Origin: Mucilaginibacter sp. dw_454
Lineage (GTDB): Bacteria > Bacteroidota > Bacteroidia > Sphingobacteriales > Sphingobacteriaceae
Direction of reading: 5' to 3'
DNA length: 64,000 bases
Assembly: GCF_018449775.1 (NCBI RefSeq)
Contig: NZ_JAAVVB010000007.1
Location: 1-64,000 of the forward strand
Part shown: in pieces, positions 47,426 through 51,004 of the stretch
Numbering within the stretch: position 1 is the stretch's first letter
How the letters are laid out: each line of letters begins with the position of its first letter
Notes under the pieces: model-generated
The model's input: only the letters and a program-made list of their open reading frames with translations
Told to the model about the DNA's origin: nothing
Database searches by the model: none
Program-made: the position numbers and the translations under genes

Positions 47426-47568
47426 GGGGACTCACCCCGCGGCTCTTCGAGCGCGACCCTCTCATCGCCTTTGGCGGAAAGAGGGTAAATACAAATCCTA
47501 TAAACCCTCTTTCCCGCTTGCGGAAGAGAGGGTGACCAAGCGAAGCGATGGTCGGGTGAGTTTTCCCC
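47426..47568. repeat. Large nested palindrome GACTCACCC (family F2, copy 1)
   Basis: The outer arms GGGGACTCACCC and GGGTGAGTTTTCCCC enclose two internal hairpins, each with CCCTCT/AGAGGG stems and loops around GCCTTTGGC or CCGCTTGCGG. The whole can fold as a four-arm structure of 143 bp. A second copy lies at 55137-55272. Confidence 0.85.
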
Positions 47569-47614: not shown

Positions 47615-47622
47615 TACCTTTG
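47615..47622 (+). promoter_or_regulatory. -7 box of the thiamine operon
   Basis: TACCTTTG is an exact TAnnTTTG box, 9 bp before the P1 helix of the TPP riboswitch. Transcription should begin around 47626-47630, at the foot of the aptamer. The -33 element is not obvious. Confidence 0.6.
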
Positions 47623-47630
47623 CCCTATAA

Positions 47631-47850
47631 TTCTCAAGGGGTGCCTTGTTTTGGGATGAAAAATATTGCTGCAGCATATTTAACCAAACTGAAAGACAGG
47701 CTGAGATCAAACCCATTGTTTTGGATTAATTTCAATGTAGAGACGCAATATTTTGCGTCTTAAACATCCGAAAAAATGAGACACAAGATATTGTGTCTCT
47801 ACAGAATCCAAAACATGCACCTGATCCGGGTAATGCCGGCGTAGGGAGAG
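47631..47850 (+). ncRNA. TPP riboswitch (THI element) with a long hairpin inserted between P2 and P4
   Basis: All conserved aptamer parts are present in order. P1 is TTCTC/GAGAG (47631-47635 and 47846-47850). P2 is GGGT/ACCC (47639-47642 and 47711-47714). The pyrimidine-binding CTGAGA is at 47701-47706. The pyrophosphate arm is CCTGATCCGGGTAATGCCGG followed by CGTAGGGA (47820-47847). P5 reads CCGG/CCGG where the consensus has CTGG/CCAG, a compensatory change. P3 is long, with an inner palindrome around TGCTGCAGCA. The junction between P2 and P4, normally a few nucleotides, is about 104 nt here and can fold into one long hairpin. It precedes a receptor and a PnuT-like transporter, the classic Bacteroidetes thiamine-uptake targets. 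Confidence 0.93.
47736..47803. repeat. Palindromic repeat GTAGAGACGCAATATT (family F3, copy 2, inside the riboswitch)
   Basis: TGTAGAGACGCAATATTTTG pairs with CAAGATATTGTGTCTCTACA, allowing G-U pairs. The left arm is identical to the copy at 33508; the right arm has several changes that mostly keep pairing. It is nested within the outer helix 47714-47727 / 47805-47817 of the riboswitch insert. Confidence 0.85.
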
Positions 47851-47873
47851 GTAATAAGTTAAGTGTACTGCGT

Positions 47874-47910
47874 GTTCTACCCTGGCATGGAGATGGTTTA
47901 ACATTTTTTT
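47874..47910 (+). terminator. Possible riboswitch expression platform (weak terminator)
   Basis: GTTCTACC (47874-47881) pairs with GGTTTAAC (47895-47902) except for a 2x2 internal loop, followed by A and seven T (47904-47910), 12 bp before the TTG start. The stem is weak, so the switch might instead act on translation. Confidence 0.45.
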
Positions 47911-47921
47911 ATTTACAAACT

Positions 47922-50312
47922 TTGAAAAAATTATTTACGGCATTATTTGCCCTGCTATTGCCTGTCCTGGCATCGGCCCAATTCTCGTTATCCGGGAAAA
48001 TTACGGACCAAAAAACCGGCGAATCATTGCCCGGCGCAAGCGTCACCATTCAAAATTTAGCCATTAGCACTATTAGTAATGCAAGCGGCAAATACACTTT
48101 TAAAAATTTAAAAAATGGCAGCTACACCGTGGTTGTTAGTTACCTGGGCTATCAAACAGCTCAACAAACAACCGAAGTATCCGCTAACAGCACGCTCGAT
48201 TTTTCATTAGTACACAGCACCACCGTAACCGAAGAGGTTACCGTAAGCGCCACCCGCGCGTCGGCCAACTCGCCCACAGCTTTTACTAATTTAAGCAAAA
48301 AGGATATCGACAAAAACAACTCGGGCCGCGGCTTTGAGTATTTGCTGGAGCAAACTCCGTCAACCGTTGTTACTTCAAATGCAGGTGCAGGCGTTGGTTA
48401 TACCAGTATCCGCATTCGCGGCTCAGACCCAACGCGTATCAACGTAACCCTAAACGGCATCCCGATGAATGATGCGGAGGACCAGGGCGTATACTTTGTC
48501 GATCTGCCGGATTTGGCTTCGTCGGTAGATAATATCCAGATCCAGCGTGGCGTTGGTACCTCAACCAACGGTGCCGGTGCTTTCGGCGCCAGCATCAATA
48601 TTCAAACCACCACCCGTCGCGATAGCGCTTATACCGAGTACAATGGCTCGGCCGGCTCGTACGGAACATTGAAAAATACGATAAACCTGGGCACCGGTTT
48701 ATTGGGTGGTCATTTTTCGTTTGATGGCCGGTTATCTGATATGCATTCTGATGGTTATATAGACCGCTCGGCCTCTACCCTGCGCTCCTACTTTTTGAGC
48801 GGCGCTTACTATGGCAAAACCAGTGTGCTGCGTTTAAATGTTTTTGGCGGATATGAGCAAACCCACCAGGCCTGGGACGGCGTGCCCGAAGATAGCGTGA
48901 AGTTTGGTAACCGTAAATACAACGAGTTGGGCTATATCAATGCCACCGGGCAGAATTATCCAAACCAAACAGATAATTATAATCAGAACTATTACCAGTT
49001 GTTGTATAACCAGCAGATTAGTCCGCTGCTTTCTTTTAGCGGAGCTTTGCATTATACACACGGCTACGGTTATTACGAGGAGTATGTAAACGATGACGCT
49101 TTGAGCAATTATGGCGTTACGCCTGTAACCATCGGCGGCACTACCATCAGCTCAACAGATTTAGTGCGCCGCCTTTGGTTAAATAATGATTTTTATGGGG
49201 CAACCTATAATTTCAACTACAAGCCATCTACCAAATTAGACCTGACACTAGGCGGCGCTTATAATGAGTACAAAGGCCGTCACTACAACAACATCGAGTG
49301 GACACAGCAAAGTACCGACATACAGCCTGATTACGAATATTCGCGCAATACGGCTAAGAAAACCGATTTCAACCTGTTTACCCGTGCAGAATATCATATA
49401 GGTGATGTTTTATTGTATGGCGATATTCAGTATCGCCATATTGGGTACTCATTTTTGGGGTTTGATGAGAACCTGAATAATGTGCAGCAGCAGGTTAGTC
49501 TTGACTTTTTTAACCCCAAGGCCGGTATTACCTACCAGGTTACAGACAATAGCAATGTATATGCCTCCATCGCGGTAGGAAACCACGAACCTAACCGTAG
49601 CGATTATGTTAACTCGTCGCCATCAAGCCGACCTAAGGCCGAAAATTTGAAAGATTTGGAACTGGGCTACCGTGTGGCTCAATCAAACTTCACCGCAGGC
49701 ATTAATGGCTTTTACATGCTGTATAAAAACCAACTGGTATTAACCGGCGCCCTGGATGATGTTGGCGAGGCCATTCGCACTAATATTGCCGATAGCTATC
49801 GTGCGGGTATTGAGTTGAATGGCAAAGTGCGCATTGCACAACAGCTAAGCTGGGCAGCTACTGCCACCTTAAGCACCAACAAAGTCAAAAACTTTAACCA
49901 GGTGTTGTTTGACGAAGGCGGCAACCCCGTTAATTTCAATTACGCTAAAACCGATATTGCCTACTCGCCAAACTTTGTGGGGTCGAGCACCATCAGCTAT
50001 CAGCCTTGCCACAATACCGAGATCGCTTTTATCAGTAAATATGTAAGTCAGCAGTATTTGGACAATACCTCATCGACAGACCGCGACTTGCCGCGTTATT
50101 TTGTAAATGATGTGAGGCTAGACTATAACTTCAGCATTAAAAGCGTGAAGAACATTGGTATAGGTTTGTTGATCAACAACGTGTTCAGCACCAACTATCA
50201 ATCGGACGGTGCAACTTATCCGGATGTTGAAGGCGGCAAAGTAGCTAACTACAACTATTGGTTTGCCCAGGCACCGATCAACTTCCTGGCGACATTGAGT
50301 TTAAAATTCTAA
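47922..50312 (+). CDS. TonB-dependent outer-membrane receptor, probable thiamine receptor (OMR1-like)
   Basis: A protein of about 796 residues started at TTG 47922, which places a signal peptide at the N-terminus (KKLFTALFALLLPVLASAQ). The frame is open further upstream only through the riboswitch. A carboxypeptidase-D-like domain spans about 22-100, the plug contains YTSIRIRGSDPTRINVTLNG and DNIQIQRGVGTSTNG, and the barrel ends NFLATLSLKF. In Bacteroidetes, receptors directly behind a THI element and before pnuT were predicted by comparative genomics to import thiamine or its precursors (OMR1). The TPP riboswitch here supports the same role. TonB energises transport. Confidence 0.85.
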   Translation: MKKLFTALFALLLPVLASAQFSLSGKITDQKTGESLPGASVTIQNLAISTISNASGKYTFKNLKNGSYTVVVSYLGYQTAQQTTEVSANSTLDFSLVHSTTVTEEVTVSATRASANSPTAFTNLSKKDIDKNNSGRGFEYLLEQTPSTVVTSNAGAGVGYTSIRIRGSDPTRINVTLNGIPMNDAEDQGVYFVDLPDLASSVDNIQIQRGVGTSTNGAGAFGASINIQTTTRRDSAYTEYNGSAGSYGTLKNTINLGTGLLGGHFSFDGRLSDMHSDGYIDRSASTLRSYFLSGAYYGKTSVLRLNVFGGYEQTHQAWDGVPEDSVKFGNRKYNELGYINATGQNYPNQTDNYNQNYYQLLYNQQISPLLSFSGALHYTHGYGYYEEYVNDDALSNYGVTPVTIGGTTISSTDLVRRLWLNNDFYGATYNFNYKPSTKLDLTLGGAYNEYKGRHYNNIEWTQQSTDIQPDYEYSRNTAKKTDFNLFTRAEYHIGDVLLYGDIQYRHIGYSFLGFDENLNNVQQQVSLDFFNPKAGITYQVTDNSNVYASIAVGNHEPNRSDYVNSSPSSRPKAENLKDLELGYRVAQSNFTAGINGFYMLYKNQLVLTGALDDVGEAIRTNIADSYRAGIELNGKVRIAQQLSWAATATLSTNKVKNFNQVLFDEGGNPVNFNYAKTDIAYSPNFVGSSTISYQPCHNTEIAFISKYVSQQYLDNTSSTDRDLPRYFVNDVRLDYNFSIKSVKNIGIGLLINNVFSTNYQSDGATYPDVEGGKVANYNYWFAQAPINFLATLSLKF

Positions 50313-50368: not shown

Positions 50369-51004
50369 ATGACAACATTACATCAATGGCTGCACTTATT
50401 TGCCGTACAGGTAAGTGAGACTACCTTTTGGGAATGGGCAGCGGTAATACTGGGTATTGCCGAAGTGCTGCTGGCCAAGATCAATAACATATGGCTTTAC
50501 CCTGCAGGGGTTGCCGGCACCATCATCAGCATTTACATTTTAATGATTGCCGGTTTGTATGCCGAGTCGGTTTTGAGCGTTTACTATATCGTGATGAGCG
50601 TTTACGGCTGGATCCACTGGATCACCCGCCGCAATGCGCCGCCGGTAAAAATAAGCTGGGCCACGCCGAAAGAGTGGGTAATTACTGTATTGATTGTAGT
50701 AATAGGCTGGGTGATATTTTATGTATTGCTCAAAAAATTCACCACATCTAATGTACCGGTCTGGGATGCCTGGGTAACCTCGACCGCGTGGGCTGGTATG
50801 TGGTTATTGGCACGGCGCAAAATGGAGAACTGGGTTTTATTGAACATCTCCAACCTGTTTGCTATCCCGCTGCTATGTTATAAACACTTGATCCTGTTTG
50901 CTGCGCTGACGCTGTTTCTGTTCATCGTCGCCATTTTTGGCTATTTTGATTGGCGGGCGATATGGAAAAAAGAGAATGACGCCGATTTAACCTTAACGCA
51001 CTAA
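50369..51004 (+). CDS. pnuT: PnuC/PnuT-family transporter, probable thiamine permease
   Basis: A 211-residue integral membrane protein of the PnuC fold, with six or seven helices. Family residues include WAAVILGIAEVLLAKINNIWLYPAGV near the start and the YGWIHWITRR motif near residue 88. PnuC proteins import NMN or nicotinamide riboside by facilitated diffusion, while PnuT members carry thiamine. The TPP riboswitch and OMR1-like receptor upstream favour thiamine. A cytoplasmic kinase such as thiamine pyrophosphokinase (Tnr3), which would trap the substrate, is not encoded next to it. The gene is separated from the receptor by a hairpin terminator. Confidence 0.85.
   Translation: MTTLHQWLHLFAVQVSETTFWEWAAVILGIAEVLLAKINNIWLYPAGVAGTIISIYILMIAGLYAESVLSVYYIVMSVYGWIHWITRRNAPPVKISWATPKEWVITVLIVVIGWVIFYVLLKKFTTSNVPVWDAWVTSTAWAGMWLLARRKMENWVLLNISNLFAIPLLCYKHLILFAALTLFLFIVAIFGYFDWRAIWKKENDADLTLTH

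Follow-up and report, generated by a model that had tools for sequence, protein, structure and literature searches.

The window analysed here is a stretch of 64 kb on contig C17 of a Mucilaginibacter genome of 4.7 Mb in 19 contigs (G000). In this window a TPP (THI element) aptamer with an enlarged J2-4 precedes a gene for a TonB-dependent receptor of the OMR/OMthi type and a gene for a PnuC/PnuT-type transporter (Table 1). The two genes probably form a thiamine-uptake operon, with thiamine as the likely substrate. Relatives of the receptor are found mainly within the genus: 74 of the 80 named loci belong to Mucilaginibacter, the best being M. corticis MAH-19 (88%), in a search of named loci that may omit records of the window's own genome. 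Just 5' of the aptamer, at 47615..47622 (+), the stretch TACCTTTG fits what we take to be the Bacteroidota -7 promoter motif, TAnnTTTG, and is a candidate promoter; stretches resembling it also occur upstream of the element in relatives. Further upstream, between aspS and the riboswitch, an inverted repeat (GGAAAGAGGGTAAATA / TATAAACCCTCTTTCC) lies at 47476-47514. The 16-mer GCGACCCTCTCATCGC near this repeat was found, among 344 fetched loci, only in four that hold the same place.

Table 1 Features of the riboswitch locus in the window
Feature	Coordinates	Strand	Sequence or basis
TPP (THI element) aptamer, P1 to P1, enlarged J2-4	47632..47851	+	core motifs read, fold, sub-threshold Rfam matches
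P1 strands	47632-47635 / 47848-47851		TCTC / GAGG, by reading
P2-P3 arm with CUGAGA	47639..47714	+	reading, fold; core likewise parsed in 93 of 97 genus loci
P2 strands	47639-47642 / 47711-47714		GGGT / ACCC, by reading
P3 strands	47643-47646 / 47698-47701		GCCT / AGGC, by reading
CTGAGA (CUGAGA)	47701-47706
J2-4 arm, 105 nt	47715..47819	+	reading; last base is the conserved A before CCTGATC
Basal helix, 5' strand	47717..47727	+	fold; 11 bp with 47805-47815
Inverted doublet of the dispersed REP palindrome (REPIN-like), arm apex	47736..47803	.	inverted-repeat, pattern and BLAST searches
Basal helix, 3' strand	47805..47815	+	fold
P4-P5 and 3' core, CCTGATCCGGGTAATGCCGGCGTAGGGA	47820..47847	+	reading, Rfam 3' half, fold
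P4 strands	47820-47822 / 47843-47845		CCT / AGG, by reading
P5 strands	47826-47829 / 47836-47839		CCGG / CCGG, by reading
Conserved hairpin, candidate expression platform	47856..47902	+	motif AAGTTAA-GTGTA-stem-...CCCT...-stem-ATGG-TTTAAC
TonB-dependent receptor (OMR/OMthi type)	47922..50312	+	Pfam PF00593, PF07715, PF13715; probable TTG start
PnuC/PnuT-type transporter	50369..51004	+	Pfam PF04973 (NMN_transporter), E 3e-48

The core motifs of RF00059 are present in the window element in the order CUGAGA, ACCC, CCUGAUC and GUAGGGA. P2 to P5 are all predicted by a minimum free energy (MFE) fold of positions 47634-47860, and P1 was assigned by reading. The fold consists of P2, P3, an 11-bp arm helix, an inner hairpin and P4-P5 and has a free energy of -74.1 kcal/mol (z -6.1), with none of 200 shuffles as stable as the native sequence. 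At the gathering threshold Rfam gave no match within the 64-kb window. Below this threshold RF00059 matches the 3' half only, with 36.7 bits vs a gathering score of 54.3, and a weak second match spans 47627-47760 (17.7 bits, E 1.3). Judged by its core and its gene context the element is a TPP riboswitch, though it falls below the curated Rfam threshold, and its RNA has probably kept the capacity to bind TPP. The available part of PMC5613172 describes TPP riboswitches of B. thetaiotaomicron that precede OMthi and pnuT, and the window element shares with them core motifs, predicted helices and gene context. In many relatives P3 (47643-47701 in the window) contains a further, small hairpin whose tip resembles CTGCAG (GCTGCAGC in the window) and which is present or absent by lineage.

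The earlier note had placed a large insert between P2 and P4, in J2-4 and not in P3. Reading and fold agree on such an insert, and it belongs to J2-4 since it comes after ACCC, the 3' strand of P2. An outer helix is also predicted as had been proposed; it has 11 bp in place of 13 pairs with one bulge, two pairs of that count being extra and one of them using the last base of P2. Between this basal helix and the inner hairpin lies an asymmetric internal loop, with 8 nt on the 5' side and 1 nt on the 3' side. The arm might be taken for a long form of P3a, likewise a hairpin that the TPP aptamer may or may not have at one of its junctions; one survey (PMC2258182) counted 552 sequences with P3a and 355 without it. 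In the available text of that survey P3a joins the P2-P3 junction, which we read as lying between UGAGA and the P2 3' strand, and its building from dispersed repeats is not described there. UGAGA and ACCC are 4 nt apart in the window and the arm follows ACCC, a difference in position that makes this identity extremely improbable and by which we ruled it out. Rfam matches of the arm to psbA-4 and to microRNA families were rejected as hairpin look-alikes, all of them below their own gathering scores.

The inner part of the arm is an inverted repeat (47736-47760 / 47779-47803) whose 25-nt arms are 88% complementary. Its pattern TGTAGAGACGCAA, with at most 2 mismatches, is matched 140 times across the genome vs 75 for the reversed control pattern, and GTAGAGACGCAATATTTTGCGTC, with at most 3 mismatches, has 78 vs 0. 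A BLAST search of the arm against its own genome gave at least 70 matches, of which two are hits of the arm on itself; from a first look at 52 candidates, 40 were scored. These pattern matches and BLAST copies bear out the earlier reading of a dispersed palindrome built into the arm. By pattern, 17 of 20 stretches fetched from the window genome are inverted REP doublets with variable spacers, and single REP copies also occur; since the dispersed REP and GC stretches were picked for listed paired matches, they are uninformative on doublet frequency. The window repeat is thus an inverted REP doublet that forms a hairpin and has many dispersed copies, which is the criterion for a REPIN. The available text on REPINs (PMC3116915) describes elements of this build, in which two copies of a short palindrome stand in inverted order, and these too are dispersed and predicted to form a hairpin. 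The window doublet differs in lying inside a structured aptamer and in that no intact RAYT was found in its genome. The sole Y1_Tnp match in this genome (L223/L224, G000:C13:309017-309356) is split over two overlapping frames, and none of four exact REP 10-mers occurs in the 3.2-kb locus of this match. A RAYT route is possible for the REP, and its movement may have been in trans or in the past.

The motif of the conserved hairpin downstream of the aptamer was matched in 79 of 93 genus leaders, with a CCC[TG] loop in all 49 distinct inner segments. The hand-written hairpin rule follows the stem only while pairing continues, so that these matches are not a covariation test, and RNAalifold returned no structure for the hairpin. 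This hairpin may be an expression platform whose loop would compete for P2. A looser loop pattern fits 63 of the 94 leaders from the genus, 26 of the 30 from the family and, where the leader belongs to another TPP riboswitch, 2 of 17; the corresponding fractions in random windows are 0.31 (taken from the same genus loci), 0.23 and 0.34. In other genera of the family the loop often reads ACCCCU, which is complementary to AGGGGU of the P2 5' strand.

The J2-4 arm in the genus and beyond

RF00059 was searched against 100 Mucilaginibacter genomes, the window's own included. Matches were obtained in 96 genomes and exceeded the cut-off in 39; in most genomes the match scored about 34-46 bits, as in the window. 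We fetched 97 loci of the window type from 96 genomes, again with the window's own, and an arm is present in J2-4 of 95 of them (94 of the 100 genomes). L160 and L161, from genomes that are 87% and 83% complete, have no recognisable element and were dropped. Parsing succeeded for 93 of the 95 arms, L089 and L108 remaining unparsed though their arms are visible. The parsed arms measure 38-116 nt with a median of 91, 68 of the 93 falling between 80 and 100 nt, and the last base is A in every one of them. The search of related genomes that the earlier note had proposed thus places the arm of the orthologues in J2-4 as well. The same result does not support the idea that some 100 nt in this junction are an exception, the arm being regular in the genus and in the family (see below), and the armed orthologues rule out an insertion unique to the window genome. 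With the arm in J2-4 this riboswitch group escapes threshold-based annotation. Compared with RF00059 of Bacteroidota OMthi/pnuT operons, the genus has a J2-4 arm of 38-116 nt that is repeat-derived and often replaced, and the Rfam model calls mainly the 3' half.

A score below the Rfam gathering threshold is what might be expected of a dead or dying riboswitch whose aptamer was destroyed by the insertion. Most orthologues, however, score similarly low, the core is near-identical across species with every arm type, and both the leader and the downstream hairpin are conserved. We therefore regard a dead riboswitch as very improbable, in line with what the earlier note had concluded from the conserved core.

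Thirty over-cut-off elements of the genus were retrieved together with some 1.5 kb of flanking sequence in either direction. According to tblastn a receptor is encoded beside none of the 30 within this distance, and a PnuC relative beside one (L009). Ten of the 30 were read, counted as for arms, and J2-4 measures about 5-6 nt in these ten elements of other genes. L009 (G029:C80), a canonical TPP riboswitch that scores above the threshold, adjoins the PnuC relative and lies about 2 kb from the armed element of its genome, so that not all pnu-linked riboswitches are armed.

A family-wide sample gave Rfam matches in 193 of 201 genomes, over the cut-off in 118. Forty genomes of the family's other genera were tested for the receptor, and 39 have it. 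The 30 loci fetched, which represent 16 of these genera, without exception have a J2-4 arm of about 36-100 nt, as read by eye and not folded, many with lineage-specific repeats. Upstream of the receptor in L189 (genus g5), P3 holds a long repeat-like palindrome (AGTTAAAAGTTCTAAGT ... ACTTAAAACTCAAAACT) and J2-4 measures about 37 nt; P3 may therefore also take up repeats. Of the 60 genomes in a class-wide sample 41 have the receptor, and the element was recognised in 19 of 29 loci. By eye, J2-4 is about 5-6 nt long in 7 of these 19 and about 22-37 nt long in the other 12. Judged by these lengths, an optional hairpin of small size in J2-4 seems to be the older and more widely distributed form, and the long arm built from repeats looks like the family's own.

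The distribution bears on a neutral explanation, in which an outward-facing J2-4 merely tolerates a hairpin, and palindromes insert and decay there without function and are rarely deleted cleanly. The class-level elements with a J2-4 of only about 5-6 nt (7/19) speak in its favour. It accounts less well for an arm that 95 of the 97 loci of the genus and all 30 fetched from the family have despite tens of replacements of its content, for lengths concentrated at 80-100 nt, or for the short J2-4 of the ten strong-match TPP elements of other genes that were read among the 30 fetched.

Turnover of arm content and genomic repeats

Simple motif rules divide the 93 arms into 46 with an AGTN heptad, 22 GC-rich, 5 REP and 20 other arms. 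On a quick tree of the receptor protein, which is not a species tree, the four types need 37 changes over 91 rows (shuffled mean 39.7, as low in 28 of 200), a count made softer than the next one by the 20 'other' arms, some of which are heptad-like. Three states (REP, GC and the rest) need at least 29 changes over 116 rows; shuffled labels need 31.2 on average, and 25 of 200 shuffles give a count as low. These divide into 6 for REP and 23 for GC, of which 6 and 19 are forced by well-supported branches. L072 and L152, whose receptor is cut, were left out of the trees; for the 116-row set 9 of the 80 named loci were unparsed, and from the 71 others only arms new to the set were added. Both counts are near the shuffled means, and arm type thus holds little phylogenetic signal.

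On the 116-row tree seventeen sister pairs differ in arm type. A base-by-base comparison covered eight of them, namely the pair that includes the window and the seven with the closest receptors. In these eight pairs 29-74 nt are identical before the arm and 52-53 of the 53 nt compared are identical after it; the arms share 0-2 nt at the 5' end and 2-4 nt at the 3' end. The closest differing pair is L091 and M. flavidus (L234), with 97.4% receptor identity. M. corticis, the nearest relative of the window, has a GC arm vs the REP arm of the window. Over 57 pairs at a receptor identity of 0.85-0.90 the mean identity is 0.95 in P2-P3, 0.92 in the leader and 0.59 in the arm, vs 0.55 for random arms.

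Repeats were counted with simple patterns, the arm itself included, and among the 100 genomes REP matches occur in 67, GC matches in 92 and heptad matches in 73. The five REP-arm genomes have a median of 78 REP matches, though G077 among them has only 3, and the median of the remaining 88 genomes is 2 (one-sided Mann-Whitney p 0.0016). For GC the values are 54.5 in the 22 GC-arm genomes vs 24 in 71 (p 1.3e-5), and for the AGTN heptad 14 in 46 genomes vs 4 in 47 (p 0.048). With independent pairs, which control for relatedness, on average 8.8 GC pairs go in the expected direction vs 0.2 in the other (median p 0.004, range 0.002-0.07) and the heptad is not significant (median p 0.45); the REP had too few informative pairs for this test. 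When sisters are compared, the genome with the arm type in question has more copies of that repeat in 10 of 11 comparisons for GC and 4 of 4 for REP, together 14 of 15 over 12 distinct pairs, the GC comparison of L095 and L068 going in the opposite direction. The window species has 78 REP and 5 GC matches and a REP arm, and M. corticis 34 REP and 65 GC matches and a GC arm. Ten dispersed GC elements start with GCCCCCC (8) or ACCCCCC (2) and all end with GGGGGGC, and many GC arms have ends of this kind. Arm content thus tracks the repeats that are abundant in the genome, clearly for GC, with support for REP and weakly for the heptad. In L335-L341 several dispersed GC-rich palindromes flank apparent terminator hairpins (AAGCCCGATT...AATCGGGCTTT in L337, for example), as if the GC-rich repeat favoured gene ends.

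Arms could also have been exchanged between species, by horizontal copying among omr1 alleles with recombination confined to the junction, and similar GC arms do occur in several species (L137, L140, L152). We consider this unlikely. The flanks on both sides of the arm match the sister species, and in the 14 of 15 sister comparisons over 12 pairs given above an arm's content goes with the number of repeats in the genome that carries it; the arm-by-arm search against the own genome covers the window's arm only.

The earlier note had suggested that the outer helix may be an older part. We moderately favour an outer helix older than the REP, and to the same moderate degree disfavour one that belongs to the REP element. 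Of the BLAST matches listed for the arm at other places of the genome, none covers the two outer strands together. In addition, the base ATTGTTTTGAGTT of L227, a locus with a REP arm, recurs in two relatives whose arms are not REP (L229 and L231), suggesting that replacement can be partial, with the base kept and the rest differing. L227 has a weak stem, however, and stems as good occur in 15 of 27 dispersed REP pairs. In these 27 pairs the outer stem has a mean of -5.31 kcal/mol vs -4.95 for mismatched flanks (SD 2.76), and with longer flanks -7.14 vs -6.32 kcal/mol (SD 3.16); the dispersed pairs thus have no marked excess of an outer stem. The flanks are as complementary as the window's in 4 of the 27.

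Arms as hairpins and their possible role

A single hairpin that takes up at least 85% of the arm is predicted for as many as 91 of the 93, vs 21.4 expected from 200 dinucleotide shuffles of each. The median z of the arm folds is -4.1, with -9.1 for REP and -6.4 for GC arms; L068 and L071 fall short of a closed hairpin by this measure and nine arms have z >= -2. We also asked, with simple rules of our own and approximate folds, how often the predicted core stays intact. It is kept in 53% of the elements (49/93) with their own arm and in 54% with an arm of another type, vs 34% with a 5-nt joint and 1% with a dinucleotide-shuffled arm; the window's own P2 is absent from the MFE of the trimmed construct and present in the fold of 47634-47860. 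With 53% vs 54%, natural arms look interchangeable as far as the predicted core is concerned.

The reading we prefer is that the J2-4 arm is old, hairpin in character and repeatedly replaced, and we give it a probability of roughly 0.8. An old extra helical arm in J2-4 would then be a regular feature of the family's thiamine-uptake riboswitch. The arm would act as a hairpin module indifferent to sequence, folding on itself and joining the P2 and P4 strands with the core untouched, and its hairpin would keep the core strands from mispairing. As many self-complementary stretches would suffice for this, dispersed palindromes could replace the arm again and again, either whole or at its apex; the apex of the window arm would be a REP doublet set on the 11-bp basal helix. 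At the DNA level the old palindrome would be lost and a new one gained, which is the route we infer, or the template would be switched at a cruciform.

Whether the riboswitch needs the arm is evenly balanced. A long hairpin may be needed while the RNA is being transcribed, as a folding insulator or as a spacer that separates P2 from P4. In solved TPP riboswitches J2-4 is involved in tertiary contacts (PMC3764141, in its available text), and the available part of a cryo-EM study has it ordered upon TPP binding (PMC11751092), so that an arm there need not be silent. The constant presence of the arm could, on the other hand, reflect history and not selection. Neutral tolerance gains from a content that is indifferent and partly driven by supply, and from swapped arms that are as compatible as the own ones (54% vs 53%); it loses from the 91 of 93 closed hairpins, and on balance we hold it to be possible but rather doubtful. 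That the arm is a selected, exchangeable part, the genome's own palindromic repeats having been domesticated over and over as structural parts, we put forward tentatively, at somewhat short of an even chance.

Repeat insertions in cyanobacterial RNase P RNA and the Rickettsia palindromic elements are analogues of such a history. Closer to riboswitches, a BOX element lies between two T-box riboswitches of Streptococcus pneumoniae (PMC3049150), a repeat in a leader whose riboswitch seemingly still works. In the available text that is one case between two aptamers, whereas here the repeats lie inside the junction of one aptamer and were replaced many times across the genus. For a fungal group of TPP riboswitches the available part of PMC11683625 mentions variability of J2-4 and describes neither an arm nor a repeat insertion. 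A literature search over the listed titles and starts of abstracts, with subscription papers outside it, gave no report of repeats that build or rebuild a J2-4 arm inside an aptamer.

The preferred reading, of an old and repeatedly replaced arm, would make this riboswitch a natural replicated experiment in RNA evolution, in which one core in more than 90 species had its arm rebuilt many times from different repeats. It would give a view, at the level of sequence, of repetitive palindromes becoming parts of structured RNAs, and the clean swap pairs offer a means of testing which peripheral features an aptamer needs. The arm also explains the sub-threshold Rfam scores of these thiamine-uptake riboswitches. 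If the arm is indeed selected and exchangeable, selfish repeats would be interchangeable structural parts of a regulatory RNA.
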